Positions 11,653-38,277 of a DNA stretch of 64,000 nucleotides are shown here, piece after piece (position 1 is the first letter of the stretch; every line of letters begins with the position of its first letter). Under the pieces are notes generated by a model. That model ran no database searches and was not told the DNA's origin. It saw nothing but the letters and a program-made list of their open reading frames with translations. Source of the stretch: Pseudomonas kribbensis (GTDB taxonomy: Bacteria > Pseudomonadota > Gammaproteobacteria > Pseudomonadales > Pseudomonadaceae); assembly GCF_003352185.1 (NCBI RefSeq), contig NZ_CP029608.1, positions 4,526,001-4,590,000 on the forward strand. Direction: 5' to 3'. The translations under genes and the position numbers were made by a program.

Positions 11653-12005
11653 TGGGCATCCCCCAGTTGCTTGCGCAGGCGGACGATGCGGGTGTTGAGC
11701 ACGTTCAGCTGCTCTTCGCTCTTCTGGGTCAACACCTTGGCTTCGGCCAGGCGTGCATCCAGTTCGGCCTGTTCGGCGCGCATCCGCGCGTTCTTGAAGG
11801 ATTCACCGGCCATGCTGCCCTTGGCCCGGTTGAACTTGTCTTTTGCCAGTTTCATTTCCGGCACTTCGTCGGCGGTGGCGCCGACGGCCTTGGCCTGCTC
11901 GAGCGCCTGCTCGGTCAAACGCATTTGTTCATTGGGTGCCGGATCGCTGGCGCAACCGGCCAGGGCCAGAACGGCCAGGGCCGTGAAAAGAACTCGATTA
12001 CTCAC
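11649..12005 (-). CDS. DUF4398 domain lipoprotein
   Basis: A 118-residue lipoprotein: signal peptide with lipobox LAGC (cysteine near residue 18), then a helical DUF4398 domain (LTEQALEQAKAVGATADEVP, AKDKFNRAKGSMAGESF) ending in a coiled coil up to RIVRLRKQLGDAQ. It shares this fold with the N-terminal half of the next gene's product, suggesting that the two interact or arose by duplication. It overlaps that gene by 4 bp and follows the solute-binding protein gene by 9 bp, so a three-gene operon is likely. Function is unknown; an envelope structural role is inferred from the OmpA partner. Confidence 0.85.
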   Translation of the reverse strand: MSNRVLFTALAVLALAGCASDPAPNEQMRLTEQALEQAKAVGATADEVPEMKLAKDKFNRAKGSMAGESFKNARMRAEQAELDARLAEAKVLTQKSEEQLNVLNTRIVRLRKQLGDAQ

Positions 12006-19006: not shown

Positions 19007-19810
19007 TCAGACCTTTAAGCCAAGCTCCGCCGAAAGCCGGGCCGTGACCCCTTTGATCAGGGGAATCAGCTCGGCCATTTTCTCCAGCGGCATGTACGGC
19101 ACGGTGCTGGCGATGCTGATCGCCGCGACGATGTGCTTGCTCGCGTCGCGGATCGGCGCCGCCACGCAACGGATCGACGGCTCGTTGTCTTCCAGATCGA
19201 ACGCGTAGCCGCCGGCCACGTATTCGGTCATCCGCTGCTCCAACTGCTCCCACGACTGCTGGGGATGTTGCGGCCAGAACTGACTTTTCCCACCCGCCGG
19301 CAGGCTGATGTCGTACAGACGCTGCCAGTCCTGCGGCGCGTCATCCAGCATCAAGGCCTTGCCGATCCCGGTGCGCGCCAGCGGCATGCGATGGCCGACC
19401 CGCGAGCGCATTTCCGGGCCGTTGCGCCCCGGATTCTTCAACAGGTACAGCACCTCGTCGCCTTCACGAATTCCCAGGTGAACGGTGTCGCCGGTCAATG
19501 CCGACAACTCGTCCAGATAAGGCCCGGCCAGGGTCACCAGCGGCAATTCTTCGCGCGCCTGGAAACCCAGTTCGATCAGCTTCGGCCCCAGCAGATAACC
19601 GACTTGCGGCACGACGCGCAGGTAACGCTCGTCCACCAGACAACTGGCCAGACGATGGGTGGTGCTGCGCGTGGTGCCGATCAGGCGGGCAATCTCTTTG
19701 AGATCGCGGGCGCCACTGGCGACGGCCTGCACCACACCCAACCCGCGAAGCAGAGTCTGAGTGCCGGTCGGCGCGGCGTCCTTGGCGTTTTTCGGGGCGT
19801 CTTCCTGCAT
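19007..19810 (-). CDS. IclR family regulator, last gene of the galactonate operon
   Basis: A 267-residue regulator with an N-terminal winged helix (LLRGLGVVQAVASGARDLKE, then LIGTTRSTTHRLASCLVDE) and a C-terminal effector domain (VRCVAAPIRDASKHIVAAIS near residue 220). IclR proteins bind palindromic operators and respond to small acids. It lies 60 bp downstream of the MFS gene in the dgoK-A-D-MFS order, so it most likely controls galactonate use. Candidate operators are the TCCCA...TGGGA palindromes upstream of dgoK and of the sugar dehydrogenase gene, but the GntR regulator at 37500 is an alternative. Start at 19810 (MQEDAPKNAKDAAPTGTQTL). Confidence 0.87.
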   Translation of the reverse strand: MQEDAPKNAKDAAPTGTQTLLRGLGVVQAVASGARDLKEIARLIGTTRSTTHRLASCLVDERYLRVVPQVGYLLGPKLIELGFQAREELPLVTLAGPYLDELSALTGDTVHLGIREGDEVLYLLKNPGRNGPEMRSRVGHRMPLARTGIGKALMLDDAPQDWQRLYDISLPAGGKSQFWPQHPQQSWEQLEQRMTEYVAGGYAFDLEDNEPSIRCVAAPIRDASKHIVAAISIASTVPYMPLEKMAELIPLIKGVTARLSAELGLKV

Positions 19811-19870: not shown

Positions 19871-21181
19871 CTACAACTCGATGCGCTCGACCTTGCCCAC
19901 CAGCAGCACGTAGGACAAAGCACCGATCAAGGCCAGAACCGCGATGTAGGTGATCGCCGGAGCGAACGAATCGCCGCTGGCCAGGAAGCCGATGACAATC
20001 GGCGTGGCAATCGCCGACAGGTTGCCGATGAAGTTGAACACCCCGCCCGTCAGTCCAAGCAACCGCGCCGGTGCCAGTGTCGAAACCAGCGACCAGGTGA
20101 TCGACGCCAGCCCGTTGCCGAAAAACGCCAGGGCCAGGAAGGCAATCACCAGCGGCGTCGATTCAACGAAATTGGCGCCGATGATCGCGGTGGAAATCAG
20201 CAACCCGCCAATGATTGGTAACTTGCGCGCAAACCCGACGGTGCAGCCACGGCGAATCAGGAAGTCGGAAAAGAACCCGGAACACAGCACGCCGATGAAC
20301 GCGGCGAGAAACGGCAGCGACGCCAGCAGGCCGGACTTGATGAAGTCCATGCCGCGATACTTCACCAGATAGGTCGGGAACCACGTCAGGAAAAACCACA
20401 GCGTCGAGTTCAGGCAGAACTGGCCGAGGTAGATCCCCCACAACTTGCGTTTGCTGAGGACGATGCCGAGATCGGTCCAGCTGAATTTCGCCTTCACCTT
20501 GGCGGTTTCAGCGGCGATGTCCACCAACCCGCCGCCCTCGCGGATCAAGTCGATTTCGCCTTCATTGGCGCCTTTGAAATCCCGTGGCTCGCGATACACC
20601 GCGTACCAGATCGCCGCCCAGACAATGCCCACCGTACCGGTCACGACAAACACCATGTGCCAGCCAAATTCATGTTGCAGCCACGCCAGCACCGGGGTCA
20701 GGAACGCCAGCCCGACAAACTGCCCGGAGGTGTAGAAACCGATGGCCGTGGCCCGTTCACGCTCGGGGAACCAGGTTGTCACCACGCGGCTGTTGATCGG
20801 ATACGCCGGCGCTTCCAGCGCACCGACCGCCATGCGCAGCACGAACAGGGCGATGAAACTGGCGGCGAATCCGAGCATCACCGTGGCCAGCGACCACAAC
20901 AGCAATGCGACGCTATAAAGGATGCGCGGTGGCACTCGGTCCACCAGCCAGCCGCCGGGGATCTGCATGGCGGCGTAGGTCCAGCCGAACGCGGAAAAGA
21001 TCAACCCGACATGCACCGGATCGATGCCCAGTTCGGTGGTGAGTGCCGGGGCGGCAATCGACAGGTTGCTGCGGTCGAGGTAGTTGATGACCACGGTGAT
21101 GAACAGCAGCACCATGATGAAAAATCGCTTGCGGCTGGGCGTGACTAACGTCGCTTGCCCGGTGAGGGTTTGCGGTTGCAT
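19871..21181 (-). CDS. MFS transporter, probable D-galactonate symporter
   Basis: A 436-residue twelve-helix permease of the anion:cation symporter (ACS/phthalate) family of the MFS. The N-terminal segment RFFIMVLLFITVVINYLDRS is typical of hexuronate/galactonate carriers such as DgoT and ExuT, and the second-helix region HVGLIFSAFGWTYAAMQIPG carries the family signature. It follows dgoD, separated by a 184-bp gap that contains a REP pair, and precedes the IclR gene. Substrate is inferred from the operon: D-galactonate or a related sugar acid. Confidence 0.87.
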   Translation of the reverse strand: MQPQTLTGQATLVTPSRKRFFIMVLLFITVVINYLDRSNLSIAAPALTTELGIDPVHVGLIFSAFGWTYAAMQIPGGWLVDRVPPRILYSVALLLWSLATVMLGFAASFIALFVLRMAVGALEAPAYPINSRVVTTWFPERERATAIGFYTSGQFVGLAFLTPVLAWLQHEFGWHMVFVVTGTVGIVWAAIWYAVYREPRDFKGANEGEIDLIREGGGLVDIAAETAKVKAKFSWTDLGIVLSKRKLWGIYLGQFCLNSTLWFFLTWFPTYLVKYRGMDFIKSGLLASLPFLAAFIGVLCSGFFSDFLIRRGCTVGFARKLPIIGGLLISTAIIGANFVESTPLVIAFLALAFFGNGLASITWSLVSTLAPARLLGLTGGVFNFIGNLSAIATPIVIGFLASGDSFAPAITYIAVLALIGALSYVLLVGKVERIEL

Positions 21182-21365: not shown

Positions 21366-22514
21366 TCACCACTCGGCAAAACTGCCATCGGCATGGCGCC
21401 AGATCGGGTTGCGCCAGCGATGGCCGACCGCCGCGCGTTCGATGACGTATTCCTCGTTGATCTCGATCCCCAGGCCCGGGCCGTTCGGGATCTTCACGAA
21501 GCCTTTGTCGTAATCGAACACCCGTGGATCCTTCACGTAATCGAGCAGGTCATTGCTCTCGTTGTAATGGATACCCAGGCTCTGCTCCTGGATAAACGCG
21601 TTGTAACAAGCGGCGTCCAGTTGCAGACAGGCTGCCAACGCGATCGGCCCCAGCGGGCAGTGCAGCGCCAGCGCCACGTCGTAGGCTTCCGCCATGTTGG
21701 CGATCTTGCGGGTTTCGGTGATGCCACCGGCGTGGGAGGCATCCGGCTGGATGATGTCGACGTAACCTTCGCTCAACACCCGTTTAAAGTCCCACCGCGA
21801 AAACAGTCGCTCGCCGAGGGCAATCGGGGTGCTGGTCAGCGGTGCCAGCTCTTTCAGCGCTTCGTAGTTTTCGCTGAGCACCGGCTCTTCGATGAACATC
21901 AGTTTGTAGGGGTCGAGTTCCTTCATCAGCACCTTGGCCATCGGCTTGTGCACCCGGCCATGGAAGTCAACACCAATGCCGACGTTAGGTCCGACTGCGT
22001 CACGCACGGCGGCGACGTTGGCCAGCGCCAGGTCGACTTTCTCGAAGGTATCGAGGAATTGCAGTTCCTCGGTGCCATTCATTTTCACGGCAGTGAAACC
22101 ACGGCCAACCGCCTCTTTCGCGGCCCGCGCGGTATCGGCCGGCCGGTCGCCGCCGATCCACGAATACACACGGATCTTGTCCCGCACCTGACCACCGAGC
22201 AGATCACTGACCGACACACCCAGCGCCTTGCCCTTGATGTCCCACAGCGCCTGGTCGATGCCGGCCAGTGCGCTCATGTGGATCGCGCCGCCCCGGTAGA
22301 AGCCGCCGCGATACAACACGGTCCAGATGTCTTCGATATTGCGTGGGTCTTTGCCAATCAGGTAGTCGGACAATTCCTCGACCGCAGCGGCGACGGTGTG
22401 GGCACGGCCCTCGACCACGGGCTCGCCCCAACCGGTCACGCCCTCGTCGGTTTCGATCTTGAGGAGGCACCAGCGCGGCGGAACGATGAAGGTGGTCAGT
22501 TTGGTGATTTTCAT
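21366..22514 (-). CDS. dgoD: D-galactonate dehydratase
   Basis: A 382-residue enolase-superfamily enzyme that converts D-galactonate to 2-dehydro-3-deoxy-D-galactonate. It starts [20 protein letters not shown] and has the N-terminal capping motif [14 protein letters not shown]. The barrel domain holds the Mg ligands ([35 protein letters not shown]) and the late catalytic His region ([16 protein letters not shown]). Length matches E. coli DgoD. It lies in dgoK-dgoA-dgoD order, 48 bp after dgoA. Confidence 0.94.
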
Positions 22515-22562: not shown

Positions 22563-23183
22563 TTAGCGAAGGGCTTTCCAGGCCGCCACGTAGGCCTTGG
22601 CATTGGCCGCCACTTGTTCAGTCGTCATGCCCGGTTTGAACAGCCCCGAACCGAGGCCGAAACCTTTGACGCCGGCGTCGATGAACGCCTGCATGTTGTC
22701 CGGGGTAATGCCGCCGACCGGCGCCAGAATCGTCCCGACGGGCAGCACCGCCAGCCAGGCTTTCACCACTGCCGGCCCCATTTGTTCGGCCGGGAACAGC
22801 TTGAGAATGTCCGCCCCCTCCTCCAGCGCAGCGAAGGCTTCAGTCGGCGTGGCAACGCCCGGCGACAGATACAGCCCCGCCGCTTTCGCCGCCCGCAACA
22901 CCTTGGCATCGCTGTGGGGCATGACGATCACCTGGCCGCCGGCCTCCTTCACCAACTCCACCTGTTCCGGCGTCAGCACCGTGCCGGCACCGATCAGGCA
23001 ATCGGCGGGCAGGGTCTTACGCAGGATGCGAATGCTTTCGTACGGTGCAGGGGAATTGAGCGGTACTTCGATGACGCGAAATCCGGCCGCATACAGGACT
23101 TCTCCGACAGCCGCGGCTTCCTGCGGATGCAGGCCGCGCAGGATCGCGATCAGACCGTTTTGCGCCAGTGCTTGCTTGAGCAT
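22563..23183 (-). CDS. dgoA: 2-dehydro-3-deoxy-6-phosphogalactonate aldolase
   Basis: A 206-residue class I aldolase of the KDPG/KDPGal family that splits 2-dehydro-3-deoxy-6-phosphogalactonate into pyruvate and glyceraldehyde 3-phosphate. The motifs are LRGLHPQEAAAVGEVLYAAG, EVPLNSPAPYESI, CLIGAGTVLTPEQVE, and QVIVMPHSD (KDPGal aldolases have this in place of FxxSP). The Schiff-base region ADILKLFPAEQMGPAVVKAW follows. It starts 19 bp after the dgoK stop in the same operon. The operon neighbours distinguish it from the KDPG aldolase Eda. Confidence 0.93.
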   Translation of the reverse strand: MLKQALAQNGLIAILRGLHPQEAAAVGEVLYAAGFRVIEVPLNSPAPYESIRILRKTLPADCLIGAGTVLTPEQVELVKEAGGQVIVMPHSDAKVLRAAKAAGLYLSPGVATPTEAFAALEEGADILKLFPAEQMGPAVVKAWLAVLPVGTILAPVGGITPDNMQAFIDAGVKGFGLGSGLFKPGMTTEQVAANAKAYVAAWKALR

Positions 23184-23202: not shown

Positions 23203-24192
23203 TTAACGGGATGAGGAATCGATCAGTCCGGCGGCAAGCGCCAATTGCCATAGCCCGCGCTCGGTGGCCTGCTCGGCCAGGGTCACCCGGGCAAAACCGC
23301 AGGCGTCGAGGGCACGGCTGTAACGGGCGCACAACTGCGCGTTGCCGATGAGGATGATCGAAGGAAGATGTGCGCCGATGCGACGGCGCCGTTGCACGGT
23401 GGCCAGCGCTGTCAGTTCGTGACCGATCAGCAGCCCGGACAGATAGTCCGGTTGTGCGGCGGCGCTGAGTTCACCGGTCAGGCCCAGGCTGCGGGCGCTG
23501 AACAGCGTCGACAGCACGCCAATCTCGCCTTCCGCCGACAACGCCACCTGCACGCCGCGATCAAATGCCTCGGCGTCGAACGTCGTGCTGTGCTGTTGGG
23601 TACGGCCGAGAATGCTGTGTTCGCTGAGCACGGCGAACACTTCGCCGGTCATGAATGTGTCGAAACGGGTGATGCAGCCGCCGGCCACTTCCACCCATTT
23701 CGAATGACTGCCCGGCAGGCCGATCAACAGATCATTGCCCGCCTCGTCCGGCAGATTCTGCAGGACGCCGAGGACCTGGGTTTCCTCGCCGCGCATCACG
23801 TTCGGCAGCTTTGAGCGCTGAATCACACCCGGCACGATATGCACATCGACACCGCGAAGACTGCGAACGGTTTGCAGGGATTTTCCGAGATCGGCGACGT
23901 TGGCCGGCGTATCGCGGTAGGACGCTTCGCACCAGCCCTGGGCGCTACCGACCATGCCGCAGGCAATGACCGGCAAGTCGGGCTGCGCATCGAGCCAGTC
24001 ACCGCAGGCCTCGTCGAACGCCAGTTCAAAACCGTCGGAGCATTCACGACCGTTGATGACCCGCGGCGTCTTCGGCAACTGCATGATCCCGAACGACAGC
24101 GACCGCTGCGCCAGCACCTGCCCGCCCGCCCCGAGTTTGTAAGCACGTAGGGAGGTCGTCCCCCAATCGAGCGCGATCAATTGCGCCAGCAT
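23203..24192 (-). CDS. dgoK: 2-dehydro-3-deoxygalactonokinase
   Basis: A 329-residue sugar-acid kinase that phosphorylates 2-dehydro-3-deoxygalactonate at O6. The phosphate loop is IALDWGTTSLRAYKLGAGG at the N-terminus; GLPGSHSKWVEVAGG lies in the middle and GHELTALATVQRRRR later. The ATG at 24192 is preceded by AACAGGTGAAGCG. It is the first gene of the galactonate operon. Its promoter at 24224-24289 is nearly identical to the one upstream of the sugar dehydrogenase gene at 35510-36328. Confidence 0.93.
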   Translation of the reverse strand: MLAQLIALDWGTTSLRAYKLGAGGQVLAQRSLSFGIMQLPKTPRVINGRECSDGFELAFDEACGDWLDAQPDLPVIACGMVGSAQGWCEASYRDTPANVADLGKSLQTVRSLRGVDVHIVPGVIQRSKLPNVMRGEETQVLGVLQNLPDEAGNDLLIGLPGSHSKWVEVAGGCITRFDTFMTGEVFAVLSEHSILGRTQQHSTTFDAEAFDRGVQVALSAEGEIGVLSTLFSARSLGLTGELSAAAQPDYLSGLLIGHELTALATVQRRRRIGAHLPSIILIGNAQLCARYSRALDACGFARVTLAEQATERGLWQLALAAGLIDSSSR

Positions 24193-24230
24193 CGCTTCAC
24201 CTGTTTTGTTATTGGCAGTGAGTGAGCTGG

Positions 24231-24289
24231 ACTATAAACCCGGGCACAACAAAATCTCAATATATAAATAACAATCCCATAATTTGGGA
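24231..24289 (-). promoter_or_regulatory. dgoK promoter with upstream palindromic operator (copy A)
   Basis: Read on minus: operator TCCCAAATTATGGGA (24274-24289 with flank), 13 bp, -35 TTGAGA (24255-24260), 18-bp spacer, -10 TATAGT (24231-24236). The start site should be near 24224, giving a leader of about 32 nt to the dgoK ATG. The operator is centred near -58, a position typical of activators. All elements recur at equal spacing in copy B at 36539-36598. Confidence 0.75.
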
Positions 24290-27017: not shown

Positions 27018-27356
27018 ATGATCTCGTCAAGGTTGACTGCTCTCGTTTTCACCACCCTGCTCTGCCCCATGGCTTTCGCGGCGACCGCTGCCGGCACCGG
27101 CCCAACTGACCCGGTCACACCGCCGCGCGCGCCTGCGATCAACAGCGCTCCCGGGATGAATACCGACGGTTCCGGCGCTCCGCTGATCAATCAGCCGCCA
27201 GCCACCGGAACCGATCCGCGCACCCAGGGCAATGACCCCGGCCGTCAGGGTGGAATGAACACACCGGATTCCCCCACTACCCCCGACAACTCCGGCTCCG
27301 GCATCGGTTCGAAAACCACCACCGGAGGCTCGGGTTCCGAAGGAACCGGTCAGTAG
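27018..27356 (+). CDS. Small secreted Pro/Gly/Thr-rich hypothetical protein
   Basis: A 112-residue protein with a clear signal peptide (MISSRLTALVFTTLLCPMAF, cleavage near AFA-AT). The mature part is low-complexity and probably disordered: GTGPTDPVTPPRAPAINS, PATGTDPRTQGNDPGRQGG and a Gly/Ser/Thr tail SGIGSKTTTGGSGSEGTGQ. It has no cysteines. The ATG at 27018 is preceded by ACTGGAGACACACC. Its last 7 bp overlap the convergent kinase gene. I do not recognise a family; similar short exported proteins occur in other pseudomonads, but no function is known to me. Confidence 0.65.
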   Translation: MISSRLTALVFTTLLCPMAFAATAAGTGPTDPVTPPRAPAINSAPGMNTDGSGAPLINQPPATGTDPRTQGNDPGRQGGMNTPDSPTTPDNSGSGIGSKTTTGGSGSEGTGQ

Positions 27357-28285
27357 GCGGAAGATTCGCGGATCAGCGCATCGACCTCGTCAGAGCCCGG
27401 TGCGGTTGCCGGCCCCCAGCGAGTGACGGCCAACGCAGCGGCGGCGTTGGCGCGCCTCGCGGCTTCAGCAGCCGCCAGACCTTGCGCCAGCCCGGCGACA
27501 AACACACCGGCATGGGCATCGCCGGCGCCGTTGCTGTCCACGGCCTGCACCTTGAAACCCGGCACATGCTGGCGCTCGCCGTGCTGATGAATCCAGCAGC
27601 CTTGCGGGCCGTCGCGCACTACCATCAGCACCTCCTGCGGCAGGTGCACGGCCAAGCGGTCCAGCGCCGTTTCGATGTCCGCTGCGCCGGTGAAACGCAG
27701 CGCCTCGACACTGTTGCTGGTCCACACGTCGATGCGCGGCAGCAGCGCCTGCATCATCGGTGAGTCCGGTGATTCCACCAGCGGGCCCGGATCGAACACC
27801 ACGTTGATCGTCTTTGGCAACGCCAGCGTCCAATCCAGCAACGCTTGGGCCTTGCCGCTGTGCAACAGGCTGTAGCCGCTGACGTAGACATAGTCCCCGG
27901 CCTCCGCGGCAACGCTGTCCAGTTCCGCAGCCGTGACTTCGCCTTCGGCGCCAATGTAGGAAATGAAGCTGCGCTCGGCCGACGCATCGGTCAGCGCCAC
28001 GCAGATACCGGAGTCGCGTTCCGCAGGCTGTTCGATGCCAATGCGGATGCCTTCGGCATTCATCGCCTGCCGTGCCAGATCACCGAAACGACCGTTGCCG
28101 TGGCGACCCAGATAGACCACCGGCAAACCGTTACGCGCGGCGGCAGCCATCACATTGAAACCGCCGCCGGCTTCGAAACTGGCGGACTGCGCCAGCACGT
28201 CACCGCCGATCTGCGGCAGTGCATCCACGGCCATGACCAGGTCGATGATGACCTGGCCGGTGTGCAACATCTTAGGCATGAGCAT
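27350..28285 (-). CDS. PfkB family carbohydrate/nucleoside kinase
   Basis: A 311-residue ribokinase-superfamily kinase. FEAGGGFNVMAAAARNG near residue 38 is PfkB signature 1, and DSNGAGDAHAGVFVAGLAQG near residue 250 is signature 2 with the catalytic Asp. The start may be at 28285, 28279 or 28270 (MLMPKM); the first overlaps the permease gene by 14 bp. It is the last gene in an operon GntR - ADP-ribosylglycohydrolase - NCS1 permease - kinase. This set resembles E. coli yegV with yegU/yegT/yegW, so a nucleoside, modified nucleoside or released ribose-type sugar is the probable substrate. Confidence 0.83.
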   Translation of the reverse strand: MLMPKMLHTGQVIIDLVMAVDALPQIGGDVLAQSASFEAGGGFNVMAAAARNGLPVVYLGRHGNGRFGDLARQAMNAEGIRIGIEQPAERDSGICVALTDASAERSFISYIGAEGEVTAAELDSVAAEAGDYVYVSGYSLLHSGKAQALLDWTLALPKTINVVFDPGPLVESPDSPMMQALLPRIDVWTSNSVEALRFTGAADIETALDRLAVHLPQEVLMVVRDGPQGCWIHQHGERQHVPGFKVQAVDSNGAGDAHAGVFVAGLAQGLAAAEAARRANAAAALAVTRWGPATAPGSDEVDALIRESSAY

Positions 28286-29738
28286 TCTCGGTTTGTGCGG
28301 CGCGGCGGTCTTTCGCCCCGCCGAGTACGAAGTAAATGCCGCCGGCCACCACGAAGGTCACGATCCAGCCAAGGCCGTTGTGGCCCAGCCAGGAATCGGA
28401 CAGAAAGCCCTTGAACCAGACGTTCTCGGCGGTGGTGCCGATGGTGGTGAAGCTGAAGCCCAGCACGATGGCAATCGCCCACGCGCCGAATGCGCGCCAC
28501 TCGATGCCGCCGCTGTACCAGTAGGCGCTGCTCGGGCTGACATCGAGCAGGTCTTTCGGGCTGTAGTAGTGACGGTGAATCAGGTCGACCACGAAGATCC
28601 CGACCCACGCAGTGATCGGTACTGCCAGCAGGGAGATGAAGGTGATGAATGGGCCATAGAAACTGTCGGCGATCAGCATGAAGTAGATCGAACCGGCGAA
28701 GATCGCGACGATGTCGACCACCACCGCGTACACGCGCTTGACCTTCAGGCCGAGGGTCAGCGTAGTCAGACCGGCGGAGTACACCGACAGGTTGTTCGAC
28801 AGCAACAGACCGCCGAACGCGGTGATCAGGTACGGCACGGCCATCCAGGTCGGCAGCATGTCGCGGATCGCCACGATCGGATCAGTCGCCGACGCCAGAT
28901 CGTTGTTGCCCACCGACAGCAGGCCGCCGAGGGTGATCAGCAACACCAGCGGAATCCCTGCGCCGAACGCAGCAGAAGCGACCAGGCGCACGGCTTTTAC
29001 GCTGCGATGCTGATAGCGCGACATGTCGGCGCCGGCATTGGCCCAGCCGATCCCGGTGCCGGCCGCCATGGTGCCGATACCGATGATCATCGCGCTCATC
29101 GGCGCCGGCGTGGCGTTGAACACCGCGCTCCAGTCGATGGTTGCGCAAAGGAAGCCACCCACCAGAATGTTCAGCGCGCCGAACACGTAGGTCGCCCACT
29201 TCTGGATCACCAGCAACGTGGCGTGGCCGAGGCCGGACACCGACAAGGTCAGCAGCACGAAAATCGCGATGAAAATCAGGGTCAGCACCGGCGCGCTTTT
29301 GGCTTCCACCGGCGAGCCGAACAGGATCGAGCACAGCGACAGCAGCACGAACGCTGCAGTGGTGGTGTTGACGGTTTCCCAGCCCAGGCGTGACATCAGC
29401 GACACCAGCGTCGGGCCGATATTGCCGCGCACACCGAAGATCGCCCGCGACAAGGTCAGGCTCGGTGCGCGACCGCGACGGCCGGCAATCGAGATGATCC
29501 CCACCACCGCGAACGAGCCGGCAGCACCGAGGATCGCGACGATGATCGCCTGCCAGATTGCCAGGCCGCGAAACGCAACCAGCGTAGCGCCCAGCGGCAG
29601 GCCGAGAATGGAAATGTTGGCCGCAAACCAGACCCAGAACAGTTGCAGCGGATGGCCGTTGCACTCGCCTTCCGGCACCGGTTCGATGCCCCGGGTTTCC
29701 AGTTGCCCGGCGCTTTGCCCGGCGTTCGATGAACTCAT
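28272..29738 (-). CDS. NCS1-family purine-cytosine permease-like transporter
   Basis: A 488-residue twelve-helix permease of the nucleobase:cation symporter-1 family. The N-terminal part has FWVWFAANISILGLPLGATL and LSRAIFGVRGNIGPTLVSLM; the middle has IGWANAGADMSRYQHRSV, which resembles the substrate-site region of CodB. The C-terminus ends in a short hydrophilic tail. Family members import cytosine, purines, hydantoins or nucleosides. In the E. coli yegTUV operon the transporter is an MFS protein (YegT), so this operon uses a non-homologous carrier in the same slot. It overlaps the kinase gene by up to 14 bp. Confidence 0.87.
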   Translation of the reverse strand: MSSSNAGQSAGQLETRGIEPVPEGECNGHPLQLFWVWFAANISILGLPLGATLVAFRGLAIWQAIIVAILGAAGSFAVVGIISIAGRRGRAPSLTLSRAIFGVRGNIGPTLVSLMSRLGWETVNTTTAAFVLLSLCSILFGSPVEAKSAPVLTLIFIAIFVLLTLSVSGLGHATLLVIQKWATYVFGALNILVGGFLCATIDWSAVFNATPAPMSAMIIGIGTMAAGTGIGWANAGADMSRYQHRSVKAVRLVASAAFGAGIPLVLLITLGGLLSVGNNDLASATDPIVAIRDMLPTWMAVPYLITAFGGLLLSNNLSVYSAGLTTLTLGLKVKRVYAVVVDIVAIFAGSIYFMLIADSFYGPFITFISLLAVPITAWVGIFVVDLIHRHYYSPKDLLDVSPSSAYWYSGGIEWRAFGAWAIAIVLGFSFTTIGTTAENVWFKGFLSDSWLGHNGLGWIVTFVVAGGIYFVLGGAKDRRAAQTENAHA

Positions 29739-29864
29739 GAGAAATGCTCCTGTTTGCCTTTATTGTGGTTGTGGCAATGACGCAGAACGACAAGACATCC
29801 CGCCCTTCCTGGGCCTGTCTGCGCGATCCATTGCGGGTGATTATTCGAAGTTTGTGGTGCGCCT

Positions 29865-29930
29865 TTCGCGAGCAAGCTCGCTCCCACAAGTACGGCGTTG
29901 TTTCTGTGGGAGCGAGCTTGCTCCGGGCGG
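29865..29930. repeat. Paired inverted REP elements
   Basis: Arms at 29865-29888 (TTCGCGAGCAAGCTCGCTCC) and 29905-29930 (TGTGGGAGCGAGCTTGCTCC) with a 16-nt spacer, between the permease start and the stop of the ADP-ribosylglycohydrolase gene. It interrupts the operon and may modulate expression of the permease and kinase. Confidence 0.9.
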
Positions 29931-29955
29931 CGATCCGACGAAGGCGTCAGCCCGT

Positions 29956-31664: not shown

Positions 31665-31744
31665 GTACAAAGTGATACCCGAAACGGGTTGGGACGAGCA
31701 AGGTAATTTTTGGGAAAGGTGACAAAAGGCGCGGTATTGGAGGC

Positions 31745-31782: not shown

Positions 31783-32754
31783 TCAGCGCTGTTTCAGACG
31801 GTCGATCACCACTGCCAGCAGCAGAATCGAACCCCGAATCACATACTGATAAAACGTGTCGATATTCTTCAGATTCATCGCATTCTCGATAATCGCCAGA
31901 ATCAGAACCCCGGCAATCACATGCCGAATCATCCCGATGCCGCCGCTCAACGAAACCCCGCCCAACACGCAGGCCGAAATCACCGTCAGCTCAAACCCCT
32001 GCCCGATCATCGGCTGCCCGGAAGTCATCCGCGATGCCAGAATCACCCCGGCCAGCGCACCGATCACCCCATGCACGGCGAAGATAATGATCTTCGTGCG
32101 GTCGACATTCACCCCCGCGAGCAACGCCGCCTCCTGGTTGCCGCCGATGGCCATGGTGTTGCGCCCGTAGGTCGTGTAATTCAGCAACCAACCGAAAAAC
32201 AGGAAGCAGACAATGGTGATCAGGATCGGCACCGGCACGCCGAACAACTGGCCGTTGCCGAAGACGAAGAACGATTCCTGGGATACGCCCACCGCTTTGC
32301 CATTGGCAAAAATGTAGGCCAGGCCACGGACGATCTGCATGGTCGCCAGCGTCGTGATCAGCGCATTGACCCGCAATTTAGCGATCACGATGCCGTTGAT
32401 CAGCCCGACGATCAGCCCCATCACCAGCGCCGCGCTGACACCGAGAAACACGCTGTTGGTGTCGCGCATCACCACCGCCGCGACCACCCCGGCGCAGGCA
32501 ATCACCGAACCCACCGACAAGTCGAAATGCCCCGACGCCAGGCAATACAACATGGTGCACGCCGCGATCCCGGTGGTGGAAATCGCCAGGCCCAGGCCGC
32601 GCATGTTCAGCGGCGAGAGGAAGTTGTCGATCAGCAGGGTACAGGCGAGAAAGATCCCGACCGCCGCCAGCAACATGACCCAGTCATCGAGGAAGCGCCG
32701 CATATCCAGCGGTTTGCGCGCGGTCGGCAGGGTTTCGTTTTGGGTTGTCATCAT
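31783..32754 (-). CDS. araH: Sugar ABC transporter permease (L-arabinose/D-galactose type)
   Basis: A 323-residue inner-membrane permease of the RbsC/XylH/AraH family with about nine helices. It starts MMTTQNETLPTARKPLDMRR; GLGLAISTTGIAACTMLYCL and the family's cytoplasmic EAA-like region GRNTMAIGGNQEAALLAGVN (contact to the ATPase) are visible. It forms the channel with AraG and receives sugar from AraF. The ATG at 32754 is chosen because GAGAGG lies 5 nt upstream; an in-frame GTG two codons earlier overlaps that site. It is the last gene of araFGH, 9 bp after araG. Confidence 0.9.
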   Translation of the reverse strand: MMTTQNETLPTARKPLDMRRFLDDWVMLLAAVGIFLACTLLIDNFLSPLNMRGLGLAISTTGIAACTMLYCLASGHFDLSVGSVIACAGVVAAVVMRDTNSVFLGVSAALVMGLIVGLINGIVIAKLRVNALITTLATMQIVRGLAYIFANGKAVGVSQESFFVFGNGQLFGVPVPILITIVCFLFFGWLLNYTTYGRNTMAIGGNQEAALLAGVNVDRTKIIIFAVHGVIGALAGVILASRMTSGQPMIGQGFELTVISACVLGGVSLSGGIGMIRHVIAGVLILAIIENAMNLKNIDTFYQYVIRGSILLLAVVIDRLKQR

Positions 32755-32763
32755 AGTCACCTC

Positions 32764-34305
32764 TCAGTTCGCCGCGCCGCTGGCGCGATGGCGCGGCAAA
32801 GCCAGTTGCAGCAGGTTGGATTCGTTGGCCTGGTCGCGGCTGACTTCGCCACGCAGGGCGCCCTCGCACAGCACCAGAATGCGGTCGGAAATGCCCATCA
32901 CTTCCATCAGATCGCTGGACACCACGATCACCGAAATGCCGTCGGCGGCGAGGTTATGGATGATCTGGTAGATCTCGGCCTTGGCGCCGATGTCGATGCC
33001 TCGGGTCGGCTCGTCGAGCAGCAGCACCTTCATCGGCATCGACAGCCAGCGGCCGAGAATCGCCTTCTGCTGGTTGCCGCCGGACAGGAACTTGATCTGT
33101 TGTCCGGCGTGTGGGGTTTTCACCTTCAGGGCCTTGATCTGTTTGTCGGCGTTGCCCTTTTCCCACATCCCGCGCAGCAGGCAACCGAGCCCGGAATTGG
33201 CGCCGCGTGCACTGATGTTGATGTTCTCGGCGACGCTGGCAAGCGGGATGATGCCTTCCTTCTTGCGGTCCTCCGGGCACAGCAGAATCCCGGCGGCAAT
33301 CGCATCCCGGGGCGAACGCAGCTTCAGTTCATGGCCGCGCAATTCCAGGCGTCCGGCGGTGTTGCGCTCCAGGCCGCTGAGCAACCGGAACAGCTCGGTT
33401 CGCCCGGCCCCGACCAGCCCGAACAACCCCAGAATCTCGCCTTTGTGCGCGTCAAAACTGATCGGCTCACGCAGCCCCGGTCCGAGCAATCCATCGACTC
33501 TCAACGCCACGGCACCGCGCGGGCGACCGCGATAGTCGTAGATGTCCTGAATGTCGCGCCCGACCATGCAGGTCACCAGTTGATCGTGGGTCAACTGGCT
33601 CATGTCATCGAAGGTGCGCACGTAGCGACCGTCCTTGAACACCGTCACCGCGTCGCAGATGCGGAACACCTCTTCCATACGGTGGGAAACGTAGAGCACC
33701 ACTTTGCCCTCGTCGCGCAGCCGGCCGATGATCGCCATCAAGCGATCGATTTCCCGCGCCGAGAGGCTGCTGGTCGGTTCGTCGAACGCGATCACATGGG
33801 CGCCACGGGACAACGCCTTGGCGATTTCCACCAGTTGCCGCTGGCCGAGGGACAGGCGCCCGACTTTGGTCTGCGGGTCGATTTCATCGGCCAGACCCTT
33901 GAGGCAGGCCAGCGCTTGCTGGCGCAGCGCGCCGCGATTGATCAGGCCGAAACTCGCCGGCAGATGTCCGAGAAACAGGTTCTCGGCCACGGTCATTTCC
34001 GGCACCAGATGCAGCTCCTGGTGAATCACCGCCACCCCGCTGCCGATGCTGTCGGCGGTGGACTTGAACGCCATCGTCCGCTCGCCGATCTGCAACTCGC
34101 CACTGCTCGGAATGTAGGCGCCGCCGAGGATTTTCAGCAGCGTTGACTTGCCGGCGCCGTTCTCGCCCATCAGAGCGTGCACCTGCCCGGGGTGGGCGAC
34201 GAAACTGATGCCGTCCAGCGCCTTCACGCCGGGAAAGGTCTTGCCGATCCCTTTGAAACGCAGGCTGCCGGCACCGTGTTGTTGTGTCTGTACTTGCGCG
34301 TGCAT
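32764..34305 (-). CDS. araG: Sugar ABC transporter ATP-binding protein
   Basis: A 513-residue ATPase with two fused ABC domains, as in AraG/XylG/MglA. The first domain has Walker A GENGAGKSTLLKIL near residue 48, signature LSLGQRQLVEIAKAL and Walker B VIAFDEPTSSLS. The second has a degenerate Walker A GLVGAGRTELFRLL, signature LSGGNQQKAILGRWL and LLDEPTRGID. The degenerate second site is normal for the family. It drives uptake of a pentose or hexose through AraH. A GC-rich hairpin separates it from araF, which may lower its expression relative to the binding protein. Confidence 0.92.
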   Translation of the reverse strand: MHAQVQTQQHGAGSLRFKGIGKTFPGVKALDGISFVAHPGQVHALMGENGAGKSTLLKILGGAYIPSSGELQIGERTMAFKSTADSIGSGVAVIHQELHLVPEMTVAENLFLGHLPASFGLINRGALRQQALACLKGLADEIDPQTKVGRLSLGQRQLVEIAKALSRGAHVIAFDEPTSSLSAREIDRLMAIIGRLRDEGKVVLYVSHRMEEVFRICDAVTVFKDGRYVRTFDDMSQLTHDQLVTCMVGRDIQDIYDYRGRPRGAVALRVDGLLGPGLREPISFDAHKGEILGLFGLVGAGRTELFRLLSGLERNTAGRLELRGHELKLRSPRDAIAAGILLCPEDRKKEGIIPLASVAENINISARGANSGLGCLLRGMWEKGNADKQIKALKVKTPHAGQQIKFLSGGNQQKAILGRWLSMPMKVLLLDEPTRGIDIGAKAEIYQIIHNLAADGISVIVVSSDLMEVMGISDRILVLCEGALRGEVSRDQANESNLLQLALPRHRASGAAN

Positions 34306-34332
34306 TTAAGCCACCTCATCACACCGTTCAAG

Positions 34333-34352
34333 CGGCCCGGCTGCCCGGGCCG
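34333..34352 (-). other. GC-rich intercistronic stem-loop between araF and araG
   Basis: CGGCCCGG and CCGGGCCG form a perfect 8-bp stem with a CTGC loop in the 56-bp gap. There is no T-tract. Such hairpins after a binding-protein gene often protect the upstream mRNA and give higher binding-protein levels. Confidence 0.65.
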
Positions 34353-34361
34353 ACGCTGCCG

Positions 34362-35366
34362 TCAGTTCCACAGGCCGATCTTTTCCAGCTCCTGCTTGAA
34401 GTTGTCGCGGGTGATCAGGGTAACGTCGTCCATCGCGGTGTACTTCGGCGGTTCTTTGCCGGTGGTGACCCACTCGTACATCATCTCGGCAGTCTTATAG
34501 CCCTCGATGTGCGGGCTCGGCAGCATCGAACCGTAGAACCCGCTGTTGGGTTTTTTCAGCTCGCCGATCGCATCGGTGCCGTTGATGCCGATGCCGATCA
34601 CGTTGGCCGCGGCAAACCCGGCGGCTTCAGTGGCGCGCACTCCACCCAGCACGGTGTTGTCGTTCATGCCGCCGATGATCAGGTTCTTCGCCGCGCCCGG
34701 CAGCTTGACCAGCGCCGAGTTGGTGGCGTCCATGCTGCCCGGTACGTCGAGGGTTTTCAGGGCGGCCGTCAGGATGTGCTCTTTCGGCAGGCCGGCGTCT
34801 TCGAGCGCTTTCATCGAACCGTCGGTGCGCTTCTTGCCGGTATCGAGTTCGTTGTAGGTGTTGACCACCGCGTAGGTGTCTTTCCAGTCCCAGTTACGCT
34901 TTTTTGCCTCGGCGGCCATGGCGGCGCCCTGCTTCTGGCCGACTTCGAACGCGGCCATGCCGAGGTACGGCACCTCTTCCATGAACTTGCCATTGGCATC
35001 GACGAAACGGTCATCAACGGCAATCACTTTCAGGTCATTGAGTTTGGCCTTGGCCATGATTGCCGGGCCGAGGGACACGTCAGGCGGGCAAATCACAAAA
35101 CCCTTGGCACCGTTGGCCGCCAGGCTGTCGATGGCCGAGAGGGTTTTCTCGCCATCCGGCACGGCGATCTTGATCAGCTCGAAGCCTTTGTCCTTGGCAG
35201 CTTTCTCGGCGAAGGCCCATTCGGTCTGGAACCACGGCTCTTCAGCCTGCTTGACCAGAAAGCCGATCTTCACCGGATCGGCGGCCAGCAGCGAACCGCT
35301 CAGGCTGAACGCAGTGACCGCCAGCGCGGTACTGCACAGGGTACGAATCCCGAAACGACGTTTCAT
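34362..35366 (-). CDS. araF: Periplasmic sugar-binding protein (arabinose/galactose type)
   Basis: A 334-residue exported binding protein of the pentose/hexose family. The signal peptide is residues 1-29 (RTLCSTALAVTAFSLSGSLL, cleavage at LLA-AD). The mature protein starts ADPVKIGFLVKQAEEPWFQT, close to E. coli AraF, with AIDSLAANGAKGFVICPPDV and IIGGMNDNTVLGGVRATEAA. E. coli AraF binds L-arabinose, D-galactose and D-fucose, so specificity cannot be fixed by sequence. It is the first gene of araFGH. A 14-bp element shared with the gntR promoter lies upstream at 35458-35471. Confidence 0.92.
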   Translation of the reverse strand: MKRRFGIRTLCSTALAVTAFSLSGSLLAADPVKIGFLVKQAEEPWFQTEWAFAEKAAKDKGFELIKIAVPDGEKTLSAIDSLAANGAKGFVICPPDVSLGPAIMAKAKLNDLKVIAVDDRFVDANGKFMEEVPYLGMAAFEVGQKQGAAMAAEAKKRNWDWKDTYAVVNTYNELDTGKKRTDGSMKALEDAGLPKEHILTAALKTLDVPGSMDATNSALVKLPGAAKNLIIGGMNDNTVLGGVRATEAAGFAAANVIGIGINGTDAIGELKKPNSGFYGSMLPSPHIEGYKTAEMMYEWVTTGKEPPKYTAMDDVTLITRDNFKQELEKIGLWN

Positions 35367-35453: not shown

Positions 35454-35471
35454 TCATATCGTATGATGATT
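35454..35471. promoter_or_regulatory. Putative GntR-family operator upstream of araF
   Basis: Contains the 14-mer ATCGTATGATGATT (35458-35471), identical in reverse complement to 38254-38267 upstream of gntR. It also forms the palindrome TCATATCGTATGA (35454-35466). It fits the FadR-type consensus TNGTNNNACNA except at one base. It is about 90 nt upstream of the araF start. Confidence 0.65.
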
Positions 35472-35509: not shown

Positions 35510-36328
35510 TCAGTCGTGGTACATCACCGAGCGACCACCATCGATGGTGATGCACGAGGCATTGATGAACGGCGCTTCATCGCTGGCCAGGAACACGGCG
35601 GTCATCGCCACTTCAATCGGCTGACCGATGCGTTTCGGTGGATGCAGATCGAAGGCGCGCTGGCGTTCGGCGTGGGGGTCGGCGAAACCGTTCCAGTAAT
35701 CGACGTTGAGCTGGGTCTCGATGTAGCCCGGGGCGATGGCGTTGACGCGAATGCCTTTCGGCGCGTACTCGATGCCCAGCGCGCGGGTCAGCCCGAGCAA
35801 ACCGTGCTTGGCCACCGGGTAAGGGAAGCAGCCGGGAATGATGTTCGTGGAATGGGTCGAGGCAATGTTGATGATGCTGCCGATGCCCTGCTCGATCATC
35901 TGCGGCAACACGGCCTTGCAGCCATACCAGGCGCCGTCGAGGTCGATGGCGAAGCAGCGGTGCCAGTCTTCTTCAGTCATTTGCAGCGGATCGCGGAACA
36001 CGTTGACCCCGGCGCAGTTGACCAGAACGTCGATGCGTCCGTGCAGCTCGATGGCCAGTTTGGCCATGGCGTGCAGATCCTGCTGGCGCGACACGTCGGC
36101 CTTGATCGCTTGTACATCGGCGCCCTGCTCGCGCCAGTGGGTAGCGACTTTCTCGACTTTTTCAGCCTGGATATCGCTGATCACCAGTTTGGCCTGCTGC
36201 GAGGCGAAGGTCGCGACGATTGCTTCACCGATGCCTTGGGCGGCGCCGGTCAGCAACACAACCTTGTTTTTCAGACGCTCGCCTTTGGGTGGCGCGGGCA
36301 CTGGCGGCAAGGAAAGAGGTTCAGCCAT
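35510..36328 (-). CDS. SDR sugar 1-dehydrogenase (probable D-galactose/L-arabinose)
   Basis: A 272-residue classical SDR. LTGAAQGIGEAIVATFASQQ gives the cofactor site, with Asp at the end of strand 2 (ISDIQ) favouring NAD. VNCAGVN, the serine region INIASTHSTNI and the catalytic YPVAKHG follow, and it ends ITIDGGRSVMYHD. Context with a lactonase, AraFGH and a DgoR-like GntR points to oxidation of an aldose to its lactone. The promoter shared with dgoK favours D-galactose, but L-arabinose is a fair alternative. The ATG at 36328 has CAGGAGTCC upstream. A leader ORF and an intrinsic terminator precede it. Confidence 0.83.
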   Translation of the reverse strand: MAEPLSLPPVPAPPKGERLKNKVVLLTGAAQGIGEAIVATFASQQAKLVISDIQAEKVEKVATHWREQGADVQAIKADVSRQQDLHAMAKLAIELHGRIDVLVNCAGVNVFRDPLQMTEEDWHRCFAIDLDGAWYGCKAVLPQMIEQGIGSIINIASTHSTNIIPGCFPYPVAKHGLLGLTRALGIEYAPKGIRVNAIAPGYIETQLNVDYWNGFADPHAERQRAFDLHPPKRIGQPIEVAMTAVFLASDEAPFINASCITIDGGRSVMYHD

Positions 36329-36331: not shown

Positions 36332-36484
36332 TCAGGACTCCTGTTCGAAAGCATAAAAAAACCGGGCATCTGACGATGTCCGGTCTGGAAGGCTTCTTGA
36401 ACGAAACAGGCAAGCGCCGCTGACGGCATCGGGCCGTTGCGGGACGCTGACTCCGCTGGGGAGTGCGATGGAAATTCGCTGCAT
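36332..36484 (-). CDS. Candidate 50-residue leader peptide upstream of the sugar dehydrogenase
   Basis: An open frame of 50 codons from ATG 36484 to TGA 36332-36334, ending 3 nt before the dehydrogenase ATG. Its ribosome-binding region AACAGGTGAAGTG is almost identical to that of dgoK, and the promoter lies about 50 nt upstream. The peptide (MQRISIALPSGVSVPQRP at the start, FFYAFEQES at the end) resembles nothing I know. The frame runs through an intrinsic terminator at 36354-36384, so translating ribosomes could disrupt the hairpin. It may be a regulatory leader, or the remnant of a duplicated dgoK 5' end. Coding status is uncertain. Confidence 0.4.
   Translation of the reverse strand: MQRISIALPSGVSVPQRPDAVSGACLFRSRSLPDRTSSDARFFYAFEQES
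36354..36384 (-). terminator. Intrinsic terminator inside the dehydrogenase leader
   Basis: ACCGGGCATC and GATGTCCGGT (one G-U pair) form a 10-bp stem with a TGAC loop; on minus a run of seven T follows. It sits between promoter copy B and the dehydrogenase start codon, so it would stop transcription unless antiterminated. Confidence 0.8.
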
Positions 36485-36538
36485 CACTTCACCTGTTTTG
36501 TTCTTTTTAAGTGTGAGTGCGTGTTACTGCTGGAGCTG

Positions 36539-36598
36539 ACTATAAACCCGACCGCTAAATAATCTCAATATATAATTTTGCATCCCATATTTTGGGAT
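36539..36598 (-). promoter_or_regulatory. Sugar dehydrogenase promoter with palindromic operator (copy B)
   Basis: On minus: operator ATCCCAAAATATGGGAT (36582-36598), 13 bp, -35 TTGAGA (36563-36568), 18-bp spacer, -10 TATAGT (36539-36544). The start site is expected near 36532. The block is spaced exactly as upstream of dgoK. The operator ends beside the lactonase stop codon, so this is an internal promoter of the gntR-lactonase-dehydrogenase row. Confidence 0.75.
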
Positions 36599-37474
36599 TT
36601 AATCAGCAAAACGTGTACAGAGCTTTCCGGCGACATCGACCCGCAACGACAGCACGGCGCCGTCCAGCGGGTGGTTCAGCGGACTTTTGGCGCTGGTGAT
36701 GTAGAGGGTTTTCAGGTCTGCGCCGCCGAATACGCAACTGGTGGGGCGGCTGATCGGCAAGTCGATCTTGCGGTCTACTTTGCCCTCCGGCGTCAGGCGC
36801 AGCAGGCAGCTGCCGTCCCAGCGGGCGTTCCAAACGTAATCTTCGGCATCCATCGCCGAACCGTCCGGGCCACCGTGCTGATCGGCGCTGTACCAGGGCT
36901 GGGCGGCGTCGAGGTTGCCGTCGGTATGGATGAAATAACGGTACAACGTGCTGTCGAGGCTGTCGCCGAACAGCAGCGTGGTGCCGTCGTCGCTCCAGAG
37001 CAACGTGTTGGGAATGCCCAGGCCCCGCAGCAATGGCGTGACTCTTTTATCCGGATCAACCCGGAACAGGCCGCCGGAACGACGGGTGATCGGCAGATCC
37101 TCGCCCTGCTCACCGATGTTGTTTTGCATGGTGCCGAGCCACAGACGGCCCTGGCCATCGCAACGCGCTTCGTTGGCGCGGTTGCCCGGTTGCGGATCGG
37201 CGACGCAGAACAGAGTCAACCGTGGTTCGAGTCCGGGGGAATCCAGATCGAGTCGGTAGACGCCGCTGCTCAGGGTCACCAGCGCGTCGCCGCTGGCGCA
37301 GGGAATGAACGCCGAGACGTGCTCCGGCATCTGCCAGATCTGCACGTTCTGCCCGATCAGCCGCAGCGCCTGCTTGCCGGCGATGTCGACCCAGTACAGC
37401 GCCTGGGCCGGCGCATCCCAGAACGGGCCTTCGCCCAGTTGCGCCCGATGCTCTGTCACCGCAGTCCACGTCAT
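36599..37474 (-). CDS. SMP-30/gluconolactonase/LRE family lactonase
   Basis: A 291-residue six-bladed beta-propeller lactonase. The first metal ligand Glu is in LGEGPFWDAPAQALYWVDI; the others are the Asn in GIPNTLLWSDDGTTLLFGDS and the Asp in GGPDGSAMDAEDYVWNARWD. It hydrolyses aldonolactones to aldonates, the second step after the sugar dehydrogenase. Start ATG 37474 has AGGAGG. It lies 25 bp after gntR on the same strand and upstream of the dehydrogenase gene. The substrate is inferred as D-galactono- or L-arabinono-lactone. Confidence 0.88.
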   Translation of the reverse strand: MTWTAVTEHRAQLGEGPFWDAPAQALYWVDIAGKQALRLIGQNVQIWQMPEHVSAFIPCASGDALVTLSSGVYRLDLDSPGLEPRLTLFCVADPQPGNRANEARCDGQGRLWLGTMQNNIGEQGEDLPITRRSGGLFRVDPDKRVTPLLRGLGIPNTLLWSDDGTTLLFGDSLDSTLYRYFIHTDGNLDAAQPWYSADQHGGPDGSAMDAEDYVWNARWDGSCLLRLTPEGKVDRKIDLPISRPTSCVFGGADLKTLYITSAKSPLNHPLDGAVLSLRVDVAGKLCTRFAD

Positions 37475-37499: not shown

Positions 37500-38216
37500 T
37501 CAGCTGGCTTTCTTGTCGGCCATCACCTGCGGGTAAAATCGCTTGATGGCCAGGTCGGCATTGTCGATCAGGGTCATGCAGGCCCAAACCCCGCGCGCGG
37601 CATCCCGGGCGGCGATGGCGTCGGCCATGTCTTTGTGGATGGGCAGCGTGCGACGCAATTCGTCGGGGTCGGCGGCGGACACTTCGAAGGACACGGCGAG
37701 CAGCGCGCCGAGGGCCGGCACCATTTGCTCGATGAATTGATTGTGGCTGGCCGCGAGAATGCACTCGTGGAAGAACTGATCGGCGCGGTTGTAATCGATG
37801 CCGCTGTGCGCGGCCCGCTCCAGGGCGTTGTAGGCCTGCTGAATGGCTTGCACCTGCTCGACAGTGGCCCGCTCGCAGGCCCAGCGCACCGCCATCGGTT
37901 CGATGGTGCGGCGCAGGTCGAGCAGGTCATCGACGAAGTTTTCCGGCAAGCCGCTACGTGACAGCCAGCCGACGACTTGCGGATCGAACAGGTTCCAGCG
38001 CTTGATCGGCAACACCCGGGTGCCGACTTTCGGCCCGACTTCGAGCAGGCCTTTGGCGACGAGGGTCTTGATGGCTTCGCGGATCACGGTGCGACTGACA
38101 CCCAGCTGTTCGCCCAGCTCGGCCTCGACCTTGATCGCCTGCCCCGGCTTCACCTGGCCGGCGGCAATCCAGGCGCCCAGCCAGTCAACCGTTGAAGCGT
38201 GAAAACTGCTCGACAT
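37500..38216 (-). CDS. GntR/FCD (FadR-type) regulator, DgoR-like
   Basis: A 238-residue regulator. The N-terminal winged helix contains ELGEQLGVSRTVIREAIKTL; the FCD domain contains WNLFDPQVVGWLSRSG, metal-ligand-type residues in DQFFHECILAASHN and the late HKDMADAIAARDA. The WN-LD/FD-V--W segment resembles E. coli DgoR, the galactonate repressor. The ATG at 38216 is preceded by GGGGTG; an in-frame GTG is two codons upstream. It heads the sugar operon. A 14-bp element in the spacer of its own predicted promoter recurs upstream of araF, consistent with autorepression and control of transport. Confidence 0.87.
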   Translation of the reverse strand: MSSSFHASTVDWLGAWIAAGQVKPGQAIKVEAELGEQLGVSRTVIREAIKTLVAKGLLEVGPKVGTRVLPIKRWNLFDPQVVGWLSRSGLPENFVDDLLDLRRTIEPMAVRWACERATVEQVQAIQQAYNALERAAHSGIDYNRADQFFHECILAASHNQFIEQMVPALGALLAVSFEVSAADPDELRRTLPIHKDMADAIAARDAARGVWACMTLIDNADLAIKRFYPQVMADKKAS

Positions 38217-38248
38217 GAACACCCCGACGCCGTTCGCTGTGGTTGCCC

Positions 38249-38277
38249 ACGCTAATCATCATACGATTGAGAGTCAA
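38249..38277 (-). promoter_or_regulatory. gntR promoter with internal operator
   Basis: On minus: -35 TTGACT (38272-38277), 17-bp spacer, weak -10 TAGCGT (38249-38254). The 14-mer ATCGTATGATGATT (plus coordinates 38254-38267) fills most of the spacer, an arrangement typical of autorepression. Confidence 0.55.

Follow-up and report, generated by a model that had tools for sequence, protein, structure and literature searches.

In E. coli, the dgo operon is repressed by DgoR, a regulator of the GntR/FadR type whose effector is D-galactonate (PMC12288454). As described in the available portions of that source, the system concerns the same pathway genes as the Pseudomonas locus considered here, and two closely spaced inverted repeats cover its promoter; it differs in the protein family of the regulator and in the operator. 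Regulators have also been predicted for galactonate elsewhere (PMC5507952). In Salinivirga HL-109, an IclR-family regulator designated GalR is clustered with dgoK, as in Pseudomonas, and was proposed to sense D-galactonate. The DgoR regulon of Halomonas, for which the accessible text names no regulator family, also takes in a galactose transporter gene. In contrast to the locus described below, no sdr-araFGH target appears in the passages of PMC5507952 that deal with these two systems. More generally, IclR-family operators are often tandem, with 18–22 nt between centres, or are built of three boxes, and the sites of PcaU, PobR and HmgR combine an inverted pair with an extra direct half-site (excerpts of PMC8222616). 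Our search found no title or abstract on the operator of the Pseudomonas IclR regulator; the supplements of PMC8222616 and PMC5507952 could hold a prior prediction.

Here we analyse a window of 64,000 nt from the genome of Pseudomonas kribbensis (contig NZ_CP029608.1, positions 4,526,001 to 4,590,000), in which a galactonate operon and a sugar dehydrogenase gene lie behind similar promoters. This Pseudomonas appears to use an IclR regulator for dgo and a FadR-type GntR regulator for other genes.

Two promoters of the window share the same architecture

Alignment of the two stretches showed the same blocks on the minus strand of both promoters: a TCCCA-N5-TGGGA palindrome, 14 bp, TTGAGA, 18 bp and TATAGT, followed by an A-rich stretch, a GGTGA Shine-Dalgarno block and an ATG (Table 1). 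The two promoters can be matched without gaps over 60 nt at 80% identity. The hexamers of the second promoter, to which those of dgoK are identical, fit the consensus at 10 of 12 positions. The original prediction had described these common blocks, with their order and strand and with an 18-bp spacer between TTGAGA and TATAGT, as they are found at both promoters; it had put the palindrome 13 bp beyond the −35, a gap that measures 14 bp for the 15-mer palindrome. It had also placed a common ribosome-binding stretch and start codon at the second promoter. Both are present, but the ATG there (36482–36484) opens an ORF of 50 codons and is not the start of the dehydrogenase, which lies at 36328.

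Table 1. Features of the two operons, their promoters and leaders, and the neighbouring GntR genes (positions in the window).
Feature	Position	Strand	Remarks
IclR-family regulator, last gene of the dgo gene set	19007..19810	-	proposed operator reader; IclR HTH PF09339 44.0 bits, C-terminal domain PF01614 103.6 bits
dgoT, galactonate transporter	19871..21181	-	TIGR00893 418.2 bits (cut-off 395)
dgoD, galactonate dehydratase	21366..22514	-	NF010624 706.2 bits (cut-off 311)
dgoA, aldolase	22563..23183	-	NF006600 296.5 bits (cut-off 207)
dgoK, 2-dehydro-3-deoxygalactonokinase, first operon gene	23203..24192	-	named from its position beside dgoA/dgoD
Shine-Dalgarno GGTGA of dgoK	24197..24201	-	
AATAACAA, Crc/Hfq catabolite-activity motif (AANAANAA) upstream of the dgoK Shine-Dalgarno	24206..24213	-	
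TATAGT, −10 of the dgoK promoter	24231..24236	-	spacer 18 bp
TTGAGA, dgoK promoter	24255..24260	-	−35 and putative third operator box (TGAGA, 20 bp from box 2)
Putative operator palindrome TCCCA-N5-TGGGA (boxes 1 and 2), dgoK promoter	24275..24289	-	centre about −58
araF-araG-araH, sugar ABC transporter genes	31783..35366	-	
Second copy of TCGTATGATGA, before araF	35459..35469	+	
sdr, SDR sugar dehydrogenase	35510..36328	-	probable galactose/arabinose 1-dehydrogenase by context
50-codon leader ORF from the shared Shine-Dalgarno/ATG	36332..36484	-	stop 3 nt before the dehydrogenase ATG
Terminator-like hairpin CCGG-A-CATC-gtca-GATG-C-CCGG plus seven T, inside the leader ORF	36355..36383	-	stem-loop 36362–36383
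AAGAACAA, Crc/Hfq catabolite-activity motif, second promoter	36498..36505	-	
TATAGT, −10 of the second promoter	36539..36544	-	
TTGAGA, second promoter	36563..36568	-	−35 and putative third operator box
Putative operator palindrome, second promoter	36583..36597	-	1 bp downstream of the lactonase stop codon 36599–36601
SMP-30-type lactonase	36599..37474	-	PF08450 248.7 bits
FadR-type GntR regulator	37500..38222	-	very probably not the palindrome reader
TCGTATGATGA, proposed GntR operator, before gntR	38256..38266	-	

The dgoK product gave no NCBIfam match. For the dehydrogenase, the best NCBIfam match is to an SDR whose substrate is not stated, and a variety of SDR enzymes make up the listed relatives of solved structure; galactose or arabinose is its probable substrate, as deduced from the neighbouring genes. 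Between the two operons, the minus strand at 27350–31670 carries a further gene set, judged by eye to comprise a GntR-like regulator, an ADP-ribosylglycohydrolase-like protein, a permease and a PfkB-like kinase, and it has no exact copy of the palindrome.

A putative operator of three boxes

The sites of relatives were compared in 80 unique dgoK and 62 unique sdr sequences, all chosen by their likeness to the consensus (at most 5 differences). Within this set, a distance of exactly 20 bp separates TGAGA (inside TTGAGA) from the position of the palindrome's TGGGA in 79 of the 80 dgoK and in all 62 sdr sites, and the same counts (79/80 and 62/62) were obtained for the 18-bp spacer, for TGGGA as box 2 and for TGAGA as box 3. 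TCCCA as box 1 is kept in 75/80 and 57/62; in the sample of 40 genomes described below it is often TCCCT, TTCCA or TCTCA. Among the compared sites, the right arm of the palindrome and TTGAGA are therefore nearly invariant, whereas the left arm is looser. Two genomes from another family of the order (G333 and G471) have TTGGGA, a plain repeat of the half-site, at the position of the third box and at the same distance, where it is kept at the cost of −35 quality; the −10 there, TACACT, is weak. These comparisons indicate that TTGAGA, beside its role as −35, is also a third, predicted box of the operator.

An additional box 20 bp away falls within the spacing of 18–22 nt of the IclR family. When aligned by hand with the group-1 IclR consensus WTTYCRYW3RYGRAAW given in PMC8222616, the palindrome agrees at 13–14 of 17 positions, in the same register and over the same length. 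It departs from this consensus symmetrically, T being changed to C and A to G in the arms (C:G for T:A), with one or two further departures. From the material available in PMC8222616, the arrangement resembles the PcaU, PobR and HmgR systems in its inverted pair with an external direct half-site, in the distance of about two helical turns between these units and in having a regulator encoded beside its targets. It differs in the predicted half-site core, which is TGGGA/TGAGA in Pseudomonas and RYGRA in group 1, and in the targets, which are here galactonate and sugar-oxidation genes.

Occurrence in the genome and in the genus

The exact palindrome occurs twice in the window, and the exact palindrome with TTGAGA is found only at these two places in the 6.3-Mb genome. 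Allowing 2–3 mismatches gave 11 further matches in the genome as compared to 6 for the reversed pattern, and these matches provide no evidence for a regulon beyond the two operons in this genome. Across the genus, exact copies of palindrome plus TTGAGA were present in 111 of 298 Pseudomonas genomes, with the reversed control at 0 in every row. A chance likeness is excluded by this restriction to two places in the genome, by the recurrence in so many genomes and by the empty control. At least 80 named stretches carry the pattern, all of them from Pseudomonas among the matches listed. In loci L009–L158 we counted 144 sites, 91 located before dgoK, 49 before sdr, 1 before araF and 3 unclassified, counts that cover sites with up to 5 differences from the consensus, in loci mostly fetched by the site itself.

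The palindrome was found in 95 of 103 dgoK upstream regions, a biased figure since many of these loci were site-fetched. Because of this bias we took a fairer sample of 40 dgoK promoters from the 83 genomes with dgoK but no exact copy, choosing among those with listed coordinates. The module was present in 39 of the 40, with 1–3 of 26 positions differing, as compared to at least 9 differences in shuffled versions of the same stretches. A general lack of the palindrome in orthologous dgoK promoters, the outcome that would have spoken against the original prediction, was not observed. The only exception, G172, has a dgoK promoter devoid of the site and comes from a genome without an IclR match.

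Distribution of the IclR regulator

An IclR protein like that of the window (E up to 1e-40) was detected in 190 of the 298 genomes of the genus, GntR in 102 and dgoK in 194. The association of IclR with dgoK is nearly complete: 190 of 194 genomes with dgoK contain it, and none of the 104 genomes without dgoK. Among the 111 genomes with an exact site, 109 have IclR and 90 have GntR. The 60 genomes with two sites always possess both proteins and therefore do not discriminate between them. Besides G172, three dgoK genomes gave no IclR match. G223 has a site with 2 differences in a genome that is 73% complete, G206 has an exact site and is assembled in about 1150 contigs, and in G080 dgoT is followed by a broken IclR relative. 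In the latter genome (C1:1311068–1311806; locus L247 from about 8060), the relative is in two pieces with an internal stop and the operator is kept. Sampling 244 genomes of the order gave 5 IclR matches (E up to 1e-55), three of them in the same genus and two, G333 and G471, in one other genus. Taken with the gene order reported below, this distribution designates the IclR protein of the window as almost certainly the common regulator of both promoters, through a predicted binding to the three boxes.

Proposed control of the two operons

We propose, with high confidence, that the IclR protein encoded at the end of the dgo gene set acts on the same kind of regulatory cassette at both promoters, recognises three boxes there and controls the two transcripts jointly. 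A pair of IclR dimers would bind the three boxes on one face of the helix, that is the inverted pair near −58 and TGAGA, which is 20 bp from the right arm and coincides with the −35. IclR would then control in step dgoKADT-iclR, for galactonate breakdown with feedback on its own gene, and the dehydrogenase and transporter genes, for uptake and oxidation of galactose or arabinose. The Crc/Hfq motif observed beside the Shine-Dalgarno sequence could add a translational catabolite repression, if it is bound as predicted. Galactose uptake, its oxidation and the breakdown of the resulting acid would almost certainly be switched together by one IclR regulator. The predicted regulon, with its three-box operator and its repeated promoter cassette, is a well-supported and ordinary bacterial circuit. 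For an IclR regulator present in 190 of the 298 sampled genomes of the genus, it suggests what the protein does, where on the DNA it binds and which genes it targets. It also distinguishes this regulon from the neighbouring GntR circuit, should make it easier to predict which plant-associated pseudomonads use galactose, arabinose and galactonate, and provides a candidate for an inducible promoter.

Since the third box coincides with the −35, repression is the likeliest mode. IclR would cover the −35 without inducer, a scheme that we hold with moderate confidence, the remainder falling to activation or to a dual mode. D-galactonate, or an intermediate close to it, is the probable inducer and would relieve the repression.

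It is possible, though less probable, that IclR binds the site as an activator or as a dual activator/repressor and is not a simple repressor. The operator is centred at −58, and a palindrome at −58 is an equally classical activator position; the retention of TTGGGA in G333 and G471, at the expense of the −35 and beside a weak −10, points in the same direction. However, promoters such as those of the window, with 10 of 12 consensus positions, should not need help. Moreover, the account available in PMC6927180 states that P. putida KT2440 grew on galactose, slowly and after a 52-h lag, when supplied with the dgoKAD genes of SBW25 under their native promoter. Judging by the distribution of IclR in the genus, KT2440 would be devoid of this regulator, and P. 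fluorescens SBW25 presumably carries the module, as deduced from P. rhodesiae (L128); we count the activity of the native promoter in that host toward repression.

Gene order around iclR

Gene neighbourhoods bear on another possibility, namely that an unlinked regulator, for instance a LysR-type activator, binds the palindrome and that IclR merely travels along. In 35 loci the neighbours of iclR are fully visible (a count that omits L061–L063 and L071, at contig ends, and L247, the second stretch of G080). These loci are not a random sample, many having been fetched by the site, and iclR belongs to a site-headed gene set in 32 of them (12 + 13 + 7). In G168, G188 and G101, dgoKADT has its own site and no iclR, which is found elsewhere behind site-sdr-araFGH; the site before sdr-araFGH-iclR shows 5, 3 and 2 differences, respectively. 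In G037 and G044, a single site heads a fused gene set, dgoKADT-sdr-araFGH-iclR. Five distant genomes have iclR immediately behind the site within a dgo cluster, the site there differing at 4–6 of 26 positions. These are G001, G147 and G164, whose IclR proteins are 51–54% identical, and G333 and G471, in which identity is 50–51%. Downstream of iclR lie dgoK-dgoA(-dgoD) in G164, G333 and G471, and dgoA in G001 and G147. Ten stretches, including those of distant genomes, contained no other match with up to 6 differences except those before dgoK. In the three loci that remain (L067 of G032, L070 of G191 and L248 of G052), iclR is apart from both dgo and sdr.

These three loci speak for an unlinked reader, as do the location of the palindrome near −58, a common activator position, and the fact that the candidates compared were only the two linked regulators. 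Nevertheless, two of the three genomes, G191 and G052, keep the site before dgoK elsewhere in the genome. Linkage in 32 loci out of 35, the position of iclR as first gene behind the site in the five distant genomes, the 20-bp spacing of the third box, which fits IclR operators, and the origin of the sole siteless dgoK promoter among 40 from a genome without an IclR match all argue against such a reader, which we consider quite unlikely. The original prediction of a single regulator and a single regulon, with IclR as the best candidate, is therefore supported by linkage as well as by the distribution of the module and of the protein.

A probable separate circuit for the GntR regulator

The second promoter is adjacent to a gene for a FadR-type GntR regulator, which the original prediction had retained as second candidate. 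The sequence TCGTATGATGA is present as exact copies twice in the window, before gntR and before araF. With up to 2 mismatches the window gives 6 matches, fewer than the 9.8 expected, so that only the two exact copies carry weight there. In relatives, TCGTATGATGA precedes gntR in 33 of 37 unique upstream regions (at most 1 mismatch; 14 exact) and araF in 47 of 57; it is found in none of the 103 dgoK, 93 sdr and 65 iclR upstream regions of relatives. TCGTATGATGA is probably the GntR protein's own operator, and its conservation suggests that GntR runs a separate small circuit made of gntR-lactonase and araFGH.

Could GntR nevertheless bind the palindrome and co-regulate both promoters? Its gene adjoins the second promoter and none of the 60 two-site genomes lacks it, but 21 of the 111 genomes with a site and 92 of the 194 with dgoK do not have it, and the likely GntR operator is absent from the dgoK and sdr upstream regions. 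In addition, FadR-type sites carry GT...AC boxes within a NyGTM-N0-1-KACNy palindrome, according to the portions of PMC4494728 available, and the palindrome of the two promoters has no such GT/AC boxes. GntR was rejected as reader of the palindrome; we find this reading very unlikely and keep IclR as the predicted common regulator.

In locus L043, positions 11666–11860, between gntR and the upstream gene, contain a long inverted repeat (TGTAGGAGTGAGCCTGCTCGCGA ... its reverse complement), which we take to resemble a REP-type element.

Leader sequences

That the two promoters are alike merely through a recent duplication, with no shared regulation, is most improbable: the likeness does run through the leader into the first codons, but dozens of genomes retain the boxes, the 18-bp spacer and the −10 amid intervening sequence that drifts.

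The catabolite-activity motif of Crc/Hfq, AANAANAA as defined in PMC10617552, is a frequent component of both leaders. All 62 unique sdr leaders contain it, where shuffling the same 28 nt gives 12.4, as do 50 of the 80 unique dgoK leaders, for which shuffling gives 3.3; the 30 dgoK leaders without a full motif include near-fits and the L039 type, which has no A-rich block. As in the Crc/Hfq targets treated in the accessible part of PMC10617552, the motif lies beside the Shine-Dalgarno sequence of sugar genes. At the second promoter, however, it precedes a leader ORF with a terminator-like hairpin instead of an enzyme gene.

A leader insert of varying length was found in 54 of 59 unique sdr leaders of relatives; the five leaders without insert comprise two without and three with the lactonase upstream. 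With a scan allowing one stem mismatch, a terminator-like hairpin was detected in 52 of the 54 inserts and in 2 of 118 control stretches. A fixed-form search, in which the CCGG stem ends are set and hence invariant by construction, found it in 53 of 54; the loop varies, the fifth position is mismatched or paired, and the 8 nt that follow contain 5–7 T. The standard terminator scan did not report the hairpin, probably owing to the stem mismatch. Neither a repeated element nor a known RNA family was recognised in it: with up to 3 mismatches it matches a single place in the genome, and Rfam (E up to 1) gave nothing.

The end of the leader ORF falls 8 nt inside the dehydrogenase gene in 41 of the 54 leaders, 3 nt short of its start in 12 and earlier in one. 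Reading from the leader ATG meets no stop through the hairpin in 53 leaders of the 54, and the same holds for the +1 frame in 48. Selection on the leader peptide was considered and is not supported, since third codon positions are not consistently enriched in differences: the excess is mild in hairpin-offset classes 68, 101 and 103 and nil in classes 29 and 104.

We read the hairpin of the second promoter as a putative regulated leader terminator. A block of the leader ribosome site by Crc/Hfq might lead, through the hairpin, to a stop before the dehydrogenase, and translation of the leader to read-through; the ribosome would cover the hairpin, transcription would continue and translation would be handed over at the overlapping or adjoining start codon. 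We regard this scheme as rather unlikely. If true, it would turn catabolite repression from a translation block into transcription attenuation and make the sequence of the leader peptide irrelevant, and a conserved hairpin behind a Crc/Hfq motif would be a surprising and unusual link between catabolite repression and transcription.

Finally, in the araF leader, close ahead of the minus-strand start at 35366, AAAAATAACAA directly precedes AGGAG, and the transporter genes may carry in it a Crc/Hfq motif of their own.
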